Both the position numbers and the translations under genes were made by a program. Below the pieces are notes generated by a model. The model did no database searches, had not been told where the DNA came from, and saw only the letters and a list, made by a program, of their open reading frames with translations. Shown piece by piece: positions 7,069 through 61,816 of a stretch of 64,000 nt of DNA. Each line of letters begins with the position of its first letter. Position 1 is the first letter of the stretch. The stretch covers positions 229,575-293,574 of the forward strand of contig NZ_JMIY01000003.1 of NCBI RefSeq assembly GCF_000685155.1. Reading direction: 5' to 3'. Source of the stretch: Candidatus Methanoperedens nitratireducens. Lineage in GTDB: Archaea; Halobacteriota; Methanosarcinia; Methanosarcinales; Methanoperedenaceae.

Positions 7069-7103
7069 TCTACAAACATTTTTAGCGATCAAAAATAATC
7101 TTG

Positions 7104-7529
7104 ATGCTTATGGTCAGAGTCCTTGCAACCGGTACTTTTGATATACTGCACCCGGGGCATCTTCTATATCTCTCAGAATCAAAGGCCCTGGGCGATGAGC
7201 TTTATGTAATAGTGGCGCGCGAATCTATGATAAAGCATAAACCAAAACCAGTAATACCTGAAGAACAGAGGCTTGCTATGGTCAGGGCGCTCCGTATGGT
7301 TGATAGGGCAATACTCGGAAGCGAGCATGATATGCTTGGACCGCTTTATGAAATAGAACCTGATATCATAACGCTTGGTAAAAACCAGTTATTCAATGAA
7401 AAGGAACTTGAGAATCAATTAAGAGCACACGGTATAAGAGCAAAGGTAGTAAGAATCCAGTCGTTTGACCCGTGTGAGCTGTGCAGCAGTTCGGCAATTA
7501 TCCGAAGATTACTCAGGCCAGACAGATAA
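7104..7529 (+). CDS. ribL: archaeal FAD synthetase (FMN adenylyltransferase) RibL
   Basis: Adenylylates FMN to FAD. The 141-residue nucleotidyltransferase has the GTFDILHPGH motif (HxGH) at its N terminus, the basic stretch KHKPKPVIPEEQR and a C-terminal SSSAIIRRL matching the ISSSxxR-type motif of this superfamily. A cysteine pair CELC precedes it, as in RibL proteins. ATG 7104 or ATG 7110 are both possible starts. FAD is required by several hydride-transfer enzymes of the C1 pathway. Confidence 0.88.
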   Translation: MLMVRVLATGTFDILHPGHLLYLSESKALGDELYVIVARESMIKHKPKPVIPEEQRLAMVRALRMVDRAILGSEHDMLGPLYEIEPDIITLGKNQLFNEKELENQLRAHGIRAKVVRIQSFDPCELCSSSAIIRRLLRPDR

Positions 7530-7530
7530 C

Positions 7531-7652
7531 ACTATGCAATAGACGTATTTCACAAGTTACTTATAGTTTTGAGCTAATGTAAATAGCGGAAGTGGGCTTG
7601 CTTGGGTATTGTCTGAGCAACTTCCATGTATGTATAAGGGGTGAGAATAGAT
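7531..7652 (+). promoter_or_regulatory. promoter and leader of beta-helix gene 1 (duplicated unit)
   Basis: This segment matches 9482-9602 upstream of the next gene almost without gaps. Shared blocks include CTATGCA, CGTATTTC, a TATA-like TTATAGTTT (7561-7569), GGAAGTGGGCTTGCTT (7588-7603) and CATGTATGTAT. A start about 25 bases after the TATA box would place the 5' end near GGAAGTGGG and give a leader of about 65 bases. GGGGTGAG just before ATG 7653 is the ribosome binding site. Confidence 0.6.
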
Positions 7653-9239
7653 ATGGTGGATAAAAATTTTAAGGAGCGTACTGCATTTAGAATAGGAATT
7701 ATAAATCTTGTAATCCTATTGCTGGCAGGTGGTGCGTGGGCTGCAACATTAACAGTAGACGATAGTGGTGGTGCAGATTTCCTGAGGATCCAGGATGCGA
7801 TAGACAATTCAAGTGACGGAGATACTATCCTGGTCTTCAGCGGTACTTATGTTGAGAACGTGGATGTGAACAAGCAGCTTAACCTTAGCGGTATTGGTCG
7901 GCCTGTTGTAGACGGAAACAGAACAGGCAGTGCTATAACCTTGAGCGCGGGACGGAGCGTGCTTGATGGGTTTGAAATCATCAACACCCAACTGCCACAT
8001 GCGGGAATAGACGTAGTTTCAGATAATAATGTTATTACCAACAACTCCGCACCGGGAAACTCTGTCGGAATAATTCTTCGGTCTTCCAGCAATAACACAC
8101 TTGAAGGCAATACTGTCTTACACAATGATATCGGCATATATCTGGATTCCTCAAACAACAATATTGTAAGTGACAACTATGTCCCATTTAACTCTGAAGA
8201 CGGCATATTTCTGAACTCTTCAGATAGCAACGTACTGAGCGGCAACTTCTTAGAGTTCAATAACAATGGCGTATCTCTATCCAGGTCCAGCAATAATACG
8301 CTGAGATTCAATACTGCATTGAGTAATCGTTTCGGAATTGCTGTGACAGGGGATAATAATATGTTAAGTGGCAACGCTGCTGTGGATAGCCTAACCGCAG
8401 GTATCAACATAGTGGGAAATAATAACATTTTAAGTGATAATCGTGCTGATTCTTTCGATATGGCTTCCTACGGTATCACTGTAAGTGGAAGCAATAACAT
8501 ACTGAATGGCAACACTGCCTTCGATAACATTTTAATCGGCATCAGTATAGAGGGAAACAACAATACGCTGAGTAACAACTCTGCATTCATTATATTTGGT
8601 GGGCATAGTGAGTTCGGCATAGCTGTTACAGGAGATAGTAACACATTAAGTGACAACACTGCTTTGGATAACCAGGGCTCAGGTATCCGTATTGAGGGGA
8701 GTAATAACATTTTAAGTGACAACAACGCCTCGTCTAACGATATCGGCATATTCCTGTTATCTTCCAGCAACAACGTGCTGAGCGGTAATATTGTCCAGTC
8801 AAATGAGAATGGTATCCGCCTTGATAACTCAAGTGGCAACACCATCTTCAACAACTTCTTTAACAACCCGAACAATGCTCGAGATGATGGAATCAATATC
8901 TGGAACATCACAAAGACTGCGGGAACGAACATCATAGGTGGCCCCTGGCTTGGAGGCAACTTCTGGTCTGATTATACAGGGGAGGATCTGGATGGAGATG
9001 GATTAGGAGATACACTGATTCCTCACAACTCATCGGGCGGCATAGCAATAGGCGGGGATTTTCTACCACTGGTTACGCCCACTCTAGTACCAACGCCGAC
9101 GCCTACTCCGACACCTACTCCGACGCCTACTTCAACACCTACACCACCAATTCCTGTCCCGGAGTTTCCAATCAGCATAGTATTCCCGGTTATTGGTATA
9201 CTGGGCATGATGCTGTTGCTGGCCAGAAGAAGGGACTAA
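7653..9239 (+). CDS. secreted NosD-like beta-helix protein with PEF-CTERM tail (copy 1)
   Basis: A 528-residue surface protein. After a signal peptide (IGIINLVILLLAGGAWA) comes LTVDDSGGADFLRIQDAI, the usual entry of NosD/CASH-type right-handed beta-helices. About fifteen helix coils follow with repeated SNNNxLSxNxA turns. Then there is a proline-threonine linker and the terminal VPEFPISIVFPVIGILG plus hydrophobic segment and RRRD. That tail is a PEF-CTERM signal, known to be processed by an archaeosortase (none in this window). ATG 7653 is chosen over GTG 7641 because GGGGTGAG fits it. The ligand is unknown. Paralog of the next gene. Confidence 0.82.
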   Translation: MVDKNFKERTAFRIGIINLVILLLAGGAWAATLTVDDSGGADFLRIQDAIDNSSDGDTILVFSGTYVENVDVNKQLNLSGIGRPVVDGNRTGSAITLSAGRSVLDGFEIINTQLPHAGIDVVSDNNVITNNSAPGNSVGIILRSSSNNTLEGNTVLHNDIGIYLDSSNNNIVSDNYVPFNSEDGIFLNSSDSNVLSGNFLEFNNNGVSLSRSSNNTLRFNTALSNRFGIAVTGDNNMLSGNAAVDSLTAGINIVGNNNILSDNRADSFDMASYGITVSGSNNILNGNTAFDNILIGISIEGNNNTLSNNSAFIIFGGHSEFGIAVTGDSNTLSDNTALDNQGSGIRIEGSNNILSDNNASSNDIGIFLLSSSNNVLSGNIVQSNENGIRLDNSSGNTIFNNFFNNPNNARDDGINIWNITKTAGTNIIGGPWLGGNFWSDYTGEDLDGDGLGDTLIPHNSSGGIAIGGDFLPLVTPTLVPTPTPTPTPTPTPTSTPTPPIPVPEFPISIVFPVIGILGMMLLLARRRD

Positions 9240-9275
9240 TCTTATCCCTTCTTTTATCATAAGAAAAAGACGACT

Positions 9276-9349
9276 AACAACGAACTCAAAACGAACTTAA
9301 ACTAACTCATCAGCCCGAGTTCGTATCGAGTTCGTACCAGTTCGTTGTT
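9276..9349 (-). repeat. palindromic ACGAACT repeat, copy A (inverted)
   Basis: A 74-base imperfect palindrome: three ACGAACT-type heptamers on one arm face three AGTTCGT-type heptamers on the other, around a short CATCAGCCC centre. The heptamer blocks pair exactly or nearly so; the 3-4 base spacers between them do not. It is the reverse complement of copy C at 52493-52566 with few differences. Confidence 0.85.
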
Positions 9350-9481
9350 TATATTAGCTGAACCACATCCGAGTCTAAGATGCGATGTAAACACAGAGTG
9401 CTATGGATCTTACTCTGTGTCCTCTGCGCACTCTGTGGTTTATAAAGTCATTATAATATGGTATGCGGGAAACTATAAATC

Positions 9482-9602
9482 GCTATGCATCCGGCGTATT
9501 TCGCAAGGCTTTTATAGTTTCGAACTTATCTAGACACTGGAAGTGGGCTTGCTTAGAGATTATCTGGGCAGTTTCATGTATGTATTAGGGAGGGAGAATA
9601 TA
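9482..9602 (+). promoter_or_regulatory. promoter and leader of beta-helix gene 2 (duplicated unit)
   Basis: Counterpart of 7531-7652. TATA-like TTATAGTTT at 9512-9520, GGAAGTGGGCTTGCTTA starting at 9539, CATGTATGTATTAGGG and AGGGAGAATATA before ATG 9603. Conservation of TATA box, leader and ribosome binding site shows that the whole transcription unit was duplicated, not only the coding region. Confidence 0.6.
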
Positions 9603-11315
9603 ATGGCTAAGATTTTTGAAGGGCATACTGCCCTTGGAATAGGGATAGTGAATCTTGTAATCTTAATGCTGGCAGGCGTCAGCGGTGCAGCAGAAATAAG
9701 CTCCTGTACCACTATTTCCTCGCCAGGTGAGTATGTGCTCAACCGGAGCATAATAGACAGCGATGCTACAAGCTGCATTAATATCACCTCAAATGATGTT
9801 GTTTTTGACGGCGCGGGTCATACGATAGATGGAGATGGAACTGGGACTTATGGCGTGCATGTCTATAATCCAACAATAACAGTGCTGACAAATGTTACTG
9901 TTAAGAATTTGGTAGTAACGGACTGGGATGATGGCATCTTATACCATCAGGTAGCAGGTGGAAGCATCGCCAATAATACCGCAAACTCGAATGGCATTGG
10001 AATCAACTTAGAAGGTTCCAGTGGTAATATATTAACCAATAACACCGCAAACTCGAACAGCATTGGAATCAGTATCGGAGATTCCTGGAACAATGAATTA
10101 ATCAGTAACACCGCAAACTCGAATACAGTCTATGGAATCGGCTTGGGTGTCAGCCGCGGAAATATATTAACAGCTAACAATGTATACTCTAACAACATTG
10201 GAATTGGCATCGTAGCTGCAGATGGCAACAGATTAACAGGTAATAATGCAAACTCGAACAGCATTGGAATCAGCATCACCCATGATTCCACTGAGAACGA
10301 CCTAGTCAATAACAATGCAAGTTCGAACAGTGATACCGGGATCCTCCTTGTCGGCACATATAGGGTTGGTGATAATTTATTAATTAACAATAATGCAAAC
10401 TCGAACGGCTATGGATTCCGCATCGAAGGTTCCAATAACAATGAATTAATCAGTAACAATGCATATTCGAATCGTTATACTGGAATCTCGCTCTCGGGCG
10501 CAAGCAGCGCAAACACACTAACAGCTAACAATGTAAACTCGAACGGTTATACTGGAATCGAAATCCTCGATTCCGATGGCAACAGATTAACAGGTAATAA
10601 TGCAAACTCGAACAAGATTGGAATCAGCATTACCCATGGTGGAATTGATAACACCCTGATCAATAACAATGCAAGTTTGAACAGAGATACCGGCATCCTC
10701 CTCGCTAACGGCGCAGGGCCCGGGGTTAGTGATAATATATTATCTAACAATACTGCAAACTCGAACGGCTATGGATTCCGCCTCGAAGATTCCCATAAAA
10801 ATGTATTAGATAGTAACAGTGTAATCTCGAATACCATATATGGGATCTCTCTTATAAATTCCAATGATAACATCATCAACAACAACCACTTTGACAACAT
10901 CAACAACGCGTATGATGATGCATCATACGAATTCAACACATGGAATAGTACAAAAACTGCTGGAGTAAACATTATCGGCGGCCCTTATCTTGGAGGTAAT
11001 CACTGGTCTGATTATACCGGTGTTGATATAGATGGAGACGGTCTGGGAGATACGCTGCTTCCATACAATTCATCAGGAAATATACTAAATGGAGGAGATC
11101 ATTTACCATTAGTTACTCCCGTCTCGACAGTAACCCCAACTGTTACACCAACAGCAACTCCAACCGCCACACCAACAGTAACCCCAACTGCTACACCAAC
11201 AGTGACTCCAACACCTACCCAACCAATTTCTGTCCCGGAGTTCCCGATCAGTGTAGCATTCCCGGTTGCAGGTATACTGGGCATGGTGCTGTTGCTGGCC
11301 AGAGGAAGGGATTAA
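9603..11315 (+). CDS. secreted NosD-like beta-helix protein with PEF-CTERM tail (copy 2)
   Basis: A 570-residue paralog of the preceding gene. It shares the signal peptide region (LGIGIVNLVILMLAGVSGA), the ending YLGGNHWSDYTGVDIDGDGLGD, the threonine-proline linker and the VPEFPISVAFPVAGILG tail with RGRD. The N-terminal domain begins ISSCTTISSPGEYVLNRSI, unlike copy 1. The coils carry very regular NANSNSIGISI units. A block around 10161-10428 is repeated at about 10513-10782 with an offset near 354 bases, an internal expansion of 118 residues. ATG 9603 is preferred over the upstream frame because AGGGAG precedes it. Likely cell-surface; ligand unknown. Confidence 0.82.
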   Translation: MAKIFEGHTALGIGIVNLVILMLAGVSGAAEISSCTTISSPGEYVLNRSIIDSDATSCINITSNDVVFDGAGHTIDGDGTGTYGVHVYNPTITVLTNVTVKNLVVTDWDDGILYHQVAGGSIANNTANSNGIGINLEGSSGNILTNNTANSNSIGISIGDSWNNELISNTANSNTVYGIGLGVSRGNILTANNVYSNNIGIGIVAADGNRLTGNNANSNSIGISITHDSTENDLVNNNASSNSDTGILLVGTYRVGDNLLINNNANSNGYGFRIEGSNNNELISNNAYSNRYTGISLSGASSANTLTANNVNSNGYTGIEILDSDGNRLTGNNANSNKIGISITHGGIDNTLINNNASLNRDTGILLANGAGPGVSDNILSNNTANSNGYGFRLEDSHKNVLDSNSVISNTIYGISLINSNDNIINNNHFDNINNAYDDASYEFNTWNSTKTAGVNIIGGPYLGGNHWSDYTGVDIDGDGLGDTLLPYNSSGNILNGGDHLPLVTPVSTVTPTVTPTATPTATPTVTPTATPTVTPTPTQPISVPEFPISVAFPVAGILGMVLLLARGRD

Positions 11316-11338
11316 TCTTATCCCTTCTTTATTTTTAT

Positions 11339-12478
11339 CTATAGAATCGCTTCAATGCGCTGCAGGGCTTCCTTGATGCGCTCCTGGGACGTTGCGTATG
11401 ATATTCTTATAAAATCATTTCCGGCAGAGCCGAATGCTGAGCCGGGAGTAGCTGCAACAGATGCCCTGTTAAGTAGAAGTTCAGCTACCTCTTCTCCATT
11501 TCCATACTCGCTTACATCTGCAAAAGCATAGAAAGCGCCATCAGGACTGGTACATCTGATACCGAGTTCATTCAATCCTCTGATGAGCAAATCCCTTCTT
11601 GTCTTAAATTCTCTGACCATATCTGCAATACAGATCTGGTCGCCAATGAGAGCCGCCACACCTGCATACTGTACAAAAGAAGTAGCCTGGCTTACCGAGT
11701 GAGAGTGGAGTTTGAGCATCTGCTCATATATCTTCTTTGGTGCGCTCACATATCCAAGCCGCCATCCTGTCATTGCGTATGCCTTTGAGAAGCCATTCAC
11801 TGTGATTGTCAGACCCTGCATTCCGTCCATTGAACCGATGCTGATGTGTTCCCTATCATAGATTATCTTCTCATAGATCTCATCAGATAAGACCATGATA
11901 TTATTATCAACAGCAAGATCGGCAATCTCTTTTAATGTCTCTTTGCTGTATACACCGCCTGTTGGATTACATGGGCTGTTTACTACAATAAGTCTGGTTT
12001 TTTCAGTTATATATTCTCCAGGCTCCACAGGTCTAAAGCCATCATCCCGGGCGGTTGGTGCCCATACTGCTTTTGCGCCTGCAAGTTTCACGCATGGCTC
12101 ATAAGAGACCCATGCCGGATCAAACAGGATGGCCTCATCACCCTCATCAAGCACAGAGAGCATGACTTCAAATATGGCCTGTTTTGCTCCGGGAGTGACT
12201 ATTATACTGCCTGCCTGCGCATCGATATTATTCTCTTTCTTTAATTTCTCTGCTATTGCCCGCCGCAGCTCCGGGATTCCGGGTGAGGGCGTGTAATGTG
12301 TCTCGCCCCGGTCAAGAGATGCCTTTGCTGCATCGATAATATGCCCGGGTGTAGTAAAATCCGGCTCACCCAGACTGAAGCTTATTATGTCCTTGCCCTG
12401 GCTTTTTAATTCACTTGCAAGATTTGATATCCTGAGCGTTGTCGATTCTGTAATATTTTGCAGTCGTTTTGCAGTCAT
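11339..12478 (-). CDS. class I/II PLP-dependent aminotransferase (AspC family)
   Basis: A 379-residue fold-type I aminotransferase of the aspartate/aromatic subgroup. Family segments are SFSLGEPDFTTP, YTPSPGIPELRRAIAEKL, TPGAKQAIFEV, NSPCNPTGGVYS, SDEIYEKIIYD, the PLP lysine motif NGFSKAYAMTGWRLGY and the C-terminal arginine region FIRISYA. The length is normal. The amino donor cannot be fixed from sequence. It is single, converging on beta-helix copy 2 and separated from tfuA by 81 bases. Confidence 0.9.
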   Translation of the reverse strand: MTAKRLQNITESTTLRISNLASELKSQGKDIISFSLGEPDFTTPGHIIDAAKASLDRGETHYTPSPGIPELRRAIAEKLKKENNIDAQAGSIIVTPGAKQAIFEVMLSVLDEGDEAILFDPAWVSYEPCVKLAGAKAVWAPTARDDGFRPVEPGEYITEKTRLIVVNSPCNPTGGVYSKETLKEIADLAVDNNIMVLSDEIYEKIIYDREHISIGSMDGMQGLTITVNGFSKAYAMTGWRLGYVSAPKKIYEQMLKLHSHSVSQATSFVQYAGVAALIGDQICIADMVREFKTRRDLLIRGLNELGIRCTSPDGAFYAFADVSEYGNGEEVAELLLNRASVAATPGSAFGSAGNDFIRISYATSQERIKEALQRIEAIL

Positions 12479-59380: not shown

Positions 59381-61816
59381 ATGCACAAACACGCCCTTAA
59401 ATACGTTTTTGTTTTTTTAGTGCTAGTTTTTAGCACAAATACCGTAGATGCGACGATAAGTTATGACGCTTCTAAGAATACAGTATATATCTCAAACGAG
59501 ATTACAAATATCTCAACTGTAGCCTCTACAATAAATAACCCTGCAGTAATTACCAGGGTAAAGCCAGGAGAGTATCTATTAAATGCAAATTTGATCATCA
59601 GACCAGATGCAACTTTAAAAATAACAAGTGAGGATATTGATTATCTAAAAATAAAGAGTACCCGTGGAGGTATTTATTACATAAACAATACCGGTACAAT
59701 GATTATTGACAGAGTTGAAATAAGTTCATGGAATACTGCTGATAACGCTCCAGATAAAAGTGTAAAGACCGGTAAGTTTACAACAGCTCCACGAAGTTAT
59801 ATAATTGCTGCCTGGGGTAGTAAATCCCATGCAAATGTTACATATTCAAAGATCCACCATCTGGGCTACGAGCCGAACGGATTACATTATAATGGACTCA
59901 GCGACGCAAGGTACAGAGGAATCGTGTGGATAAGCAGCAGTAATAATCTGATCAGTAACAACAACTTTGCTGATGACATGCTTGATGGGATCACACTATG
60001 GGAAAAATCGAACAATAACATAATTAAGAACAATACAGTATCAAATACTTATGAGAACGGGATACTGGCATATCATTATAATGAATACAATTTAATCGAG
60101 AACAACACAGTACGGAACGCCGGGAAGCAGGGAATTGAGCTGTTCTCCAATAATTTAAACAATATAATAAGAAATAACTACGTTGATGGAACCGGTCATT
60201 ATGGTATCTACCTGCAGAGTGCAAACAAATACAACACGATTGAAAAGAATACAGTTAAAAACCTGGGGTTTGGAGGTATAAGACTCTATTCTGGCAGCAG
60301 TAGCAACCGGGTTACAGATAACGTAGTGTATAAAAGCAATCTCTATGGTATCCACATAAACCGTGCAATAAACAGTGTTCTGGAGAGAAACATAGTAACG
60401 CACGGTAAAAGTGAGGGTATCTACATTGATGGTGACTCAGGCTCAATTACTGTCCAAAACAATATCATAGCGTACAATTCAAAATCAGGCATACTTAGCG
60501 CAAGTTCGGGAAGTAACACAATAAAGAATAATATTATAACAAATAACCAGGGATACGGCATAAGCGGGACAGGGATGACATCCACGTATAACGATGTCTG
60601 GAACAATAACCTTGGCAATTACAATCGCATATCGCAAGGTAAAGGTGATATCTCTCTTGATCCTCTGTTTGCTGACCCACAGGCGGGCGATTATCACTTA
60701 AAGTCCAGAGCTGGCAGATGGACTCCAGCCGGCTGGGTCATTGATTCTGTAAGTTCTCCTGCGATTGATGCAGGCGATCCGACATTCGCTTATTCAAATG
60801 AGCCATCGCCAAATGGTGGAAGAATTAACATGGGCGCTCATGGAAATACCCCCCAGGCCTCCAGGTCAGGAGCGCTTTCACAGGACACGGTACCTCCATC
60901 GGCTATAACAAACCTTGCAGCAGGAGATCCAACAATAGATTCGATAACTCTTACATGGACCGCTCCCGGAGATGATGGAAACATTGGTACAGCTTCACAG
61001 TATGATATAAGGTATTCAACTTCAGTTATTAATGAGAGCAACTGGAATTCAGCTACCCAGGTAACTGGTGAAATAACTCCAGCCCCGGCAGGCACAACCC
61101 AGACCATAAAGATCACAGGACTTAATTCTGGAACGACCTACTATTTCGCCATCAGAACTGCTGATGATGTTCCGAACTGGTCGGGATTGTCAAATGTTCC
61201 AGATGCAGCAACTGTATCCGATACTAAAGACCTGACAGTATCCAACATAACTGTATCCAGCGGCAAAAGCTATGCTCCAGATACGCTTGCGGCTGGTAAG
61301 CTCCAGTATATCGACCGCAGCTATACATTCAGCACTGTGCCTTCCCCTTACGAGGGCCTGAGGTATATCAGAACGGCAAACGATGATAAAGCTTCTAACG
61401 GCAGTACTTTCCTGGAATTCGATACGATCAGTGATATGACAGTGTACATAGCTCACGACGATAGAATATCCTCAAAACCATCCTGGCTTTTATCCTTTAC
61501 AGATACAGGTGATAAACTTATTAGTGATGGTGGAACGTTCAGTATATATGCCAGGAACTTTTCAGCCGGACATGTCGAGCTGGGTGGAAATGATGGAGAT
61601 GGTTACAGTATGTACAGTGTGATTCTAAGACCTTTTAATGACAGCATGAGCTATACGCTGGACGTTAACCTTGATGGGTCAGTGGATGTTGCTGATCTGG
61701 TCATTGTCTCTCAGCATTTAGGCGAGACCACAGCAGCCCCATATCCGCGCTATGATGTCAATGCTGATGGAATAGTGGATATCACTGATGTAACACTGGT
61801 AGCCGATCATATCTGA
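59381..61816 (+). CDS. secreted beta-helix protein with FN3 and dockerin domains
   Basis: An 811-residue exported protein: signal peptide (YVFVFLVLVFSTNTVDA), a right-handed parallel beta-helix at about 120-440 with NNxIxNNxxSN coils, one fibronectin type III domain at about 500-610 (PPSAITNLAAGDPTIDSITLTWTAP to YYFAIRTADDVPNWSG), a beta-rich region, and a C-terminal dockerin type I repeat pair (DVNLDGSVDVADLVIVSQHLG and DVNADGIVDITDVTLVADHI, both EF-hand-like). There is no PEF-CTERM tail, so it may be displayed through a cohesin partner, which is not in the window. GGAGG precedes the start. Confidence 0.87.
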   Translation: MHKHALKYVFVFLVLVFSTNTVDATISYDASKNTVYISNEITNISTVASTINNPAVITRVKPGEYLLNANLIIRPDATLKITSEDIDYLKIKSTRGGIYYINNTGTMIIDRVEISSWNTADNAPDKSVKTGKFTTAPRSYIIAAWGSKSHANVTYSKIHHLGYEPNGLHYNGLSDARYRGIVWISSSNNLISNNNFADDMLDGITLWEKSNNNIIKNNTVSNTYENGILAYHYNEYNLIENNTVRNAGKQGIELFSNNLNNIIRNNYVDGTGHYGIYLQSANKYNTIEKNTVKNLGFGGIRLYSGSSSNRVTDNVVYKSNLYGIHINRAINSVLERNIVTHGKSEGIYIDGDSGSITVQNNIIAYNSKSGILSASSGSNTIKNNIITNNQGYGISGTGMTSTYNDVWNNNLGNYNRISQGKGDISLDPLFADPQAGDYHLKSRAGRWTPAGWVIDSVSSPAIDAGDPTFAYSNEPSPNGGRINMGAHGNTPQASRSGALSQDTVPPSAITNLAAGDPTIDSITLTWTAPGDDGNIGTASQYDIRYSTSVINESNWNSATQVTGEITPAPAGTTQTIKITGLNSGTTYYFAIRTADDVPNWSGLSNVPDAATVSDTKDLTVSNITVSSGKSYAPDTLAAGKLQYIDRSYTFSTVPSPYEGLRYIRTANDDKASNGSTFLEFDTISDMTVYIAHDDRISSKPSWLLSFTDTGDKLISDGGTFSIYARNFSAGHVELGGNDGDGYSMYSVILRPFNDSMSYTLDVNLDGSVDVADLVIVSQHLGETTAAPYPRYDVNADGIVDITDVTLVADHI

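Follow-up and report, generated by a model that had tools for sequence, protein, structure and literature searches.

The tandem genes g1 and g2 of the methane-oxidising archaeon Candidatus Methanoperedens nitratireducens are an ordinary gene family of mosaic make-up, with no sign of antigen-style switching. It is fairly probable, in our view, that they encode independently expressed surface proteins that are processed by archaeosortase C (ArtC), and that they arose by tandem duplication together with replacement of a core. Both are on the + strand of the 64,000-nucleotide stretch analysed here (the window, whose positions serve as coordinates) in a 3.2 Mb genome, and their features are as follows.

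7560..7567, +: TATA-box-like element of g1 (putative role), about 25 nt 5' of the hairpin block; g2 and the ortholog have it too
7588..7627, +: 5' leader hairpin of g1 at the predicted transcript start, with the GGAAGTGGGCTTGCTT block as its 5' arm (z -2.1 over 45 nt; model match 7587-7641)
7653..9239, +: g1, beta-helix PEF-CTERM surface protein, 528 aa counted from ATG (PF05048, E 3.5e-54; TIGR03804; TIGR03024)
7653..7742, +: signal peptide region of g1, its DNA resembling g2 in alignment
7743..8055, +: N-terminal cap type 1 (VDDSGGADFLRIQDAI) and first coils of g1, of a family other than the g2 cap (matches in 26 of 31 genus genomes, E<=1e-8)
9156..9236, +: PEF-CTERM anchor of g1 (26.3 bits in the genome search, above the cut-off of 23; 20.7 in the whole-protein scan, below it)
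9225..9255, +: terminator-like hairpin spanning the g1 stop codon (z -1.5; present in ortholog R1, z -4.3)
9263..9389, +: 127-bp dispersed repeat lying between g1 and g2 but not between the orthologs
9510..9517, +: TATA-box-like element of g2 (putative role)
9539..9577, +: 5' leader hairpin of g2 (z -2.4; model match 9538-9591)
9603..11315, +: g2, beta-helix PEF-CTERM surface protein, 570 aa (PF05048, E 3.7e-55)
10199..10702, +: two coil-block copies in g2 (10199-10348 and 10553-10702; 84% identical, spacing 354 bp)
11232..11312, +: PEF-CTERM anchor of g2 (20.9 bits in the genome search and 16.4 in the protein scan, both below the cut-off of 23)
11302..11330, +: terminator-like hairpin spanning the g2 stop codon, followed by a T-rich stretch (z -1.95)

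Domain content and membrane anchoring

Both products exceed the PF05048 gathering score and are predicted to fold as right-handed beta-helices, which places them among the parallel beta-helix (NosD/PF05048) proteins. They resemble other NosD/parallel beta-helix repeat proteins (PF05048, TIGR03804) in their strong domain matches, coils of about 22-24 residues and Asn-rich turns; identity with the NosD copper maturation protein itself was rejected, as TIGR04247 requires 300 bits and scored 121.5 and 70.7. The structure model of g2 (mean pLDDT 76, coil blocks mostly 80-97) comprises N- and C-terminal helices, a beta-helix and a low-confidence stalk at 449-553, and that of g1 is weaker (mean pLDDT 68, and under 50 for a large part of its N-terminal 90 residues). 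Foldseek returned general beta-helix proteins, with low query-normalised TM-scores of 0.12-0.40 among the 50 matches listed. One of these is PfbA of Streptococcus pneumoniae (4mr0), which likewise has a beta-helix on a surface-displayed protein but is distant in structure and sequence (TM-score 0.29, identity 11%) and is anchored by an LPXTG sortase, whereas g1 and g2 carry PEF-CTERM tails.

A PEF-CTERM tail was defined by a C-terminal P-E-F motif, a hydrophobic helix, a basic end and a score above the model cut-off. The g1 tail has these features by its genome-search score, and its C-terminal helix is predicted; that of g2 is borderline, with the same motif but a score under the cut-off. Outside their own orthologs the two tails are each other's nearest relatives (81% aa identity), the next being a G007 gene at the same locus (67%) and tails elsewhere (56%). 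Tail comparison rejected the other PEF-CTERM tails of this genome as equally close relatives. Archaeosortase C is the known partner of such tails, and two loci of the genome exceed its cut-off, at 263 and 151 bits. The likeness to the PEF-CTERM/ArtC sorting system consists of TIGR03024-type tails on g1 and g2 and two ArtC genes in the same genome, the sub-threshold g2 tail being a point of difference. PMC5244752 describes PEF-CTERM and ArtC in ANME-2a and 2d and discusses multihaem cytochrome and S-layer proteins; g1 and g2 have instead a beta-helix ectodomain.

We propose that each of the tandem paralogs would be expressed from its own TATA promoter as a hairpin leader, N-terminal signal peptide, beta-helix, flexible Thr/Pro-rich stalk, PEF-CTERM tail and stop hairpin, and exported most likely through Sec. 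The PEF-CTERM helix would most likely hold the protein at the membrane for processing by ArtC, so that the beta-helix, carried by its stalk, would be displayed at the cell surface. Its probable ligand there is polysaccharide or some other matrix component of the aggregates.

Shared ends and divergent cores

The ends of the two genes are homologous. Local alignment pairs 7532-7729 with 9483-9676 and 8809-9254 with 10840-11330, and the upstream score of 96 compares with a maximum of 24 in 200 shuffles. A preliminary description had given the upstream match an offset of 1950-1951 bases with a single indel; the offset stands, but the alignment holds several small indels. Over about 120 bp upstream 94 of 117 aligned columns (80%) are identical (85/120 in a four-way alignment), and each gene has a 5' leader of about 65 nt. 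The sequences after the stops are alike, as had been described, with 19 of 21 bases identical, and these common ends bear out the view that the duplication took in promoter, leader and tail.

The leader is specific to this locus. The genome holds just two exact copies of the 16-mer GGAAGTGGGCTTGCTT, and with two mismatches it has only two genome matches, both within coding sequence as the loci were read; a 204-bp leader query gave a meaningful E-value only at g1 and g2 (7.7e-30 for the second copy, 0.025 for the next best). No comparable leader was found upstream of the 15 beta-helix genes tested elsewhere (scores <=27 vs 94 for g1-g2), and two upstream regions elsewhere scoring 26-27 against g2 were matched by 1/100 (L094) and 0/100 (L097) shuffles. 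Weak likeness to the g1 leader in G007_g1 was equalled by 3/200 shuffles, and to the g2 leader by 55/200; for G022 and G010 the count was 0/200 in both comparisons. A leader model recovered none of these three. Its strong matches were confined to three of the 31 genus genomes and three of the 149 order genomes and always lay at the locus between ribL and AAT, and it added no new members because all five strong matches are its own training sequences. The idea that the leader marks a genome-wide regulon or a cassette scattered through the genome was rejected, there being no other strong match in the genome itself, in 40 relatives (DNA query) or in the 31 genus and 149 order genomes.

The cores have diverged far more than these borders, again as first described: dS between the paralogs is 0.28 in the PEF tail, against 1.49 in the C-domain and 1.9-2.4 in the cap and coils, so divergence is unequal along the unit. 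The two caps belong to distinct families, each having relatives of its own, and the g1 C-domain is 70% identical to that of g2 and 74% and 72% identical to proteins elsewhere. Third-position identity in the PEF tail and C-domain is 22/27 against 48/90 between g1 and g2 (p 0.013), and 23/27 against 44/90 in the relative (p 0.0008). Signal-peptide third positions exceed the C-domain in conservation significantly only in the relative (p 0.03), with p 0.52 between g1 and g2, and the 5' side of the mosaic thus rests on similarity of the non-coding leader. Ortholog leaders are 95-97% identical, against a synonymous distance of about 0.13, and selection could also maintain the leader likeness. The ends common to g1 and g2 would descend from one locus-specific gene, with g1 or its ancestor having replaced its cap and coil core, perhaps by recombination, with those of another beta-helix family before it parted from the G040 lineage. 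A search for the donor of this core gave best cap matches of about 70% aa and no donor.

The locus in related genomes

A second genome (G040/L029) holds an ortholog pair. Informative sites group orthologs over within-genome copies by 30:0 in the leader, 16:0 in the signal, 56:1 in the C-domain and 8:1 in the tail, so g1 and g2 have exchanged practically nothing since the genomes split; these patterns also reject recent gene conversion as having homogenised the borders. The strains differ mainly in coils that were gained, lost or replaced, a process that would have gone on within each gene after the split, and the ortholog of g2 lacks 160 residues of the coil array at 10199..10702. dN/dS is below 1 in most segments (0.13-0.14 in the g1 cap and C-domain, 0.37 in the g1 coils, 0.74 in the g2 coils), and exceeds 1 in the g2 signal (1.7) and g2 linker (1.9) on very few synonymous changes.

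Among 23 loci with both flanks seen, five have beta-helix genes between ribL and AAT, three of them two in tandem; 16 have no gene (gaps 6-573 bp) and two have other ORFs (G020, G017). The count leaves out stretches without AAT (G021, G002, G009), genomes in which ribL was found and the locus sequence was not included (G042, G011), a second G018 ribL copy (L142) and L143, which is another locus. The titles and abstract openings of the open-licence literature on Methanoperedens and archaeal beta-helix proteins yielded no account of this locus.

Hairpins and alternative explanations

The conserved borders look partly RNA-like, with a 5' hairpin and a terminator-like hairpin in each gene; the latter straddles each stop, and the last codons therefore belong to it. 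R2 has this hairpin only in weak form (z +1.05), and it was not found in G007_g2, G022 or G010. It was rejected as a general feature of PEF-CTERM genes, being strong in one of seven others checked in this genome (L025, z -4.9). The common leader might be a regulatory RNA, a protein-binding or condition-sensing hairpin co-controlling the surface locus, which is compatible with our preferred explanation and which we hold possible though unlikely. A hairpin lies at the predicted 5' end in seven of eight folded leaders (z -1.95 to -3.2), the GTGGG block falls within its 5' arm in four genomes, and paralog changes preserve G-U/A-U/G-C pairing; yet the 45-nt folding window was picked after the fold was seen, whole-leader z is 0 to -1.2 for seven of eight, and the G010 leader lacks the fold (z +1.4). 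Covariation amounts to seven pairs with one-sided pair-keeping changes and none double-sided, a result reached by 193/500 shuffles, and neither Rfam (no family at E<=1 in 7400-11500) nor the leader model, with no new member, favours this reading.

A plain, old tandem duplication, with cores diverged through coil turnover and relaxed selection, is somewhat less likely again. The borders would then look young only because promoter, 5' hairpin, membrane anchor and terminator hairpin are constrained; the leader is indeed under constraint in orthologs, coil turnover is fast, and the stop-straddling hairpin could account for conserved synonymous sites at the extreme 3' end. Third positions of the PEF tail 5' of that hairpin are conserved too, however, C-domain third positions are near saturation despite strong amino-acid constraint, and the two caps, of distinct families, each have their own relatives, all of which argue against a plain duplication. 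The suggestion first made for the pair, antigen-like or ligand-switching proteins, here taken as cassettes whose variable cores are exchanged or alternately expressed behind a common leader, appears very improbable. Shared leader and tail with divergent middles, and what looks like replacement of a block of g1 coils between strains, would agree with it, but no silent cassettes or extra leader copies were found in the genome, the copies have essentially not exchanged since the strain split, and an unsystematic look noticed no invertible borders or recombinase adjoining the pair. The further cassettes with the same leader that it would entail were absent from the genome and from the 31 genus and 149 order genomes, beyond the model's own sequences. 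Nothing suggests one-at-a-time expression, since g1 and g2 each have their own TATA box and leader.

Duplication with core replacement may extend to a more general, and doubtful, picture of the ribL-AAT locus as a 'display slot', in which beta-helix ectodomains would be swapped over evolutionary time and coil number retuned between strains. On the same tentative footing, the fixed frame would run from the promoter and 5' RNA hairpin through the signal, stalk and PEF anchor to a terminator hairpin formed within the final codons and stop.

Cells of Methanoperedens form aggregates and trade electrons with their environment, and the open-licence literature searched has little on their surface proteins. 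This locus offers defined, comparable surface proteins with a clear mode of change (turnover of coils, and what looks like a single replacement of a core) as well as the testable idea that the last codons of an anchor may double as a terminator hairpin.

Architecture and shared borders of the pair

The window (C3:229575-293574 of the 3.2 Mb genome G000) carries g1 and g2 between two genes that, from a reading of the sequence, we take to be ribL-like and aminotransferase (AAT) genes:

7101-7529, +, ribL-like gene
7653-9239, +, g1, gene for a putative surface protein (beta-helix, PEF-CTERM)
9263-9389, 127-bp dispersed repeat between g1 and g2, whose first part carries AACAACGAACT/AGTTCGTTGTT as inverted ends
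9603-11315, +, g2, gene for a putative surface protein (beta-helix, PEF-CTERM)
11339-12478, -, aminotransferase gene

Domain searches place PF05048 and parallel beta-helix repeats in both proteins, and in both predicted models a hydrophobic helix at the N-terminus is followed by a coil stack, a low-confidence Thr/Pro-rich stalk and a C-terminal helix. The genome-wide search for PEF-CTERM gave 10 matches at E<=1 (7 of the 10 above the cut-off), with g1 scoring above the cut-off and g2 under it; two genes for the partner archaeosortase C (ArtC) exceed theirs. A further beta-helix/NosD ORF in the window (59381-61816, 811 aa; PF05048 matches at C3:289237-290208) is absent among these PEF-CTERM matches. 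Another tandem PEF-CTERM pair, L023 and L025 (G000:C8:37138-37973), encodes two proteins of similar sequence (200 and 216 aa), and a strong hairpin straddles the stop of its first gene (z -4.9).

The upstream, signal and tail similarity of g1 and g2 is genuine and far beyond chance, as judged by local alignment, genome search and shuffles. Their leaders are 80% identical, and the 16-base leader block occurs exactly twice in the genome; the upstream alignment needs several small indels rather than the single one of the preliminary description.

Divergence along the unit and a probable mosaic origin

The segments of g1 and g2 differ from each other at these dS values: signal 0.84, cap 1.9, coils 2.4, C-domain 1.5 and PEF tail 0.28. 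The saturated values are indicative only, and cap and coil alignments across families are unreliable. Third-position tests separate PEF from C-domain in the window pair (p 0.013) and in the orthologous pair of the relative G040 (p 0.0008); for signal against C-domain the values are 0.52 and 0.03. Orthologs aside, the two PEF tails are each other's nearest neighbours and the C-domains are not. The g1 cap family is present in 26 of 31 genus genomes, and the g2 cap resembles those of same-locus beta-helix genes in G007, G010 and G022 and of others elsewhere. Of 15 beta-helix genes tested elsewhere, ten of type 1 (the g1 cap family) and five others, none has a comparable leader. Since site patterns group the orthologs, all of this is older than the G000-G040 split.

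Between these genomes, g1 orthologs have flanks at dS 0.13-0.21 and aligned coils at dS 0.42 and dN 0.16; g2 coils stand at dS 0.07 and dN 0.05. Because dS rises together with dN, the g1 coil change suggests block replacement, with non-equivalent coils aligned, rather than point-by-point diversifying selection. Orthologs differ in length by 70 (g1) and 160 residues (g2), and g2 contains a partly duplicated coil block at a spacing of 354 bp.

The locus among relatives

Among named relatives, a MAG of Ca. Methanoperedens nitroreducens (L029, G040) is the closest at this locus; its best segment is 70% identical to g1 over the full length. The 127-bp repeat is missing from its intergenic region; in the window's genome there are about 40 copies at 86-98% identity (41 matches by our count, self included, at >=86% over >=90 bases).

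Both flanks were seen at 23 loci (22 fetched and the window). Beta-helix genes occupy five, two each in G000, G040 and G007 and one each in G022 and G010; the gap is empty in 16 and holds other, unrelated ORFs in two (G020, L131 952-2271; G017, L141 993-1424). A RibL+AAT tree that left out G010 clusters G000, G040, G007 and G005 (support 0.92), the G005 locus being empty. This would fit a gain in that clade with loss in G005, the genes of G022 and G010 being either older or of separate origin. The second G007 gene (L121 3288-4736, -) has a beta-helix as well as the conserved leader; in place of PEF-CTERM its C-terminus carries a different domain, presumably SdrD/Cna-B-like.

RNA-like features at the borders

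The leader block begins some 25 nt downstream of the TATA box, at the usual position of archaeal transcription starts. A hairpin folds at the block in seven of eight leaders; whole-leader folding z-scores are weak and covariation in the hairpin is not significant. A report on the methanogen Methanolobus psychrophilus describes an Hsp20 gene with a 65-nt 5' UTR and a predicted structure burying the ribosome binding site (PMC5378194), so that structured leaders of about 65 nt have already been proposed in methanogenic archaea. At the 3' borders of g1, g2, the g1 ortholog in G040 and the first G007 gene, a hairpin takes in the final codons together with the stop and is followed by T-rich sequence, with modest z-scores (-1.5 to -1.95) except in the G040 g1 ortholog (-4.3); that of the g2 ortholog is weaker (+1.05). 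A terminator pattern scan found four sites, the g2 hairpin among them, and is by itself no evidence because 2.5 were expected.

The two RNA features are suggestive, and the antigen-like or ligand-switching role proposed in the preliminary description is not supported. The genes g1 and g2 belong to known protein and sorting families, of which they are ordinary representatives, and their mosaic history is reasonably supported.
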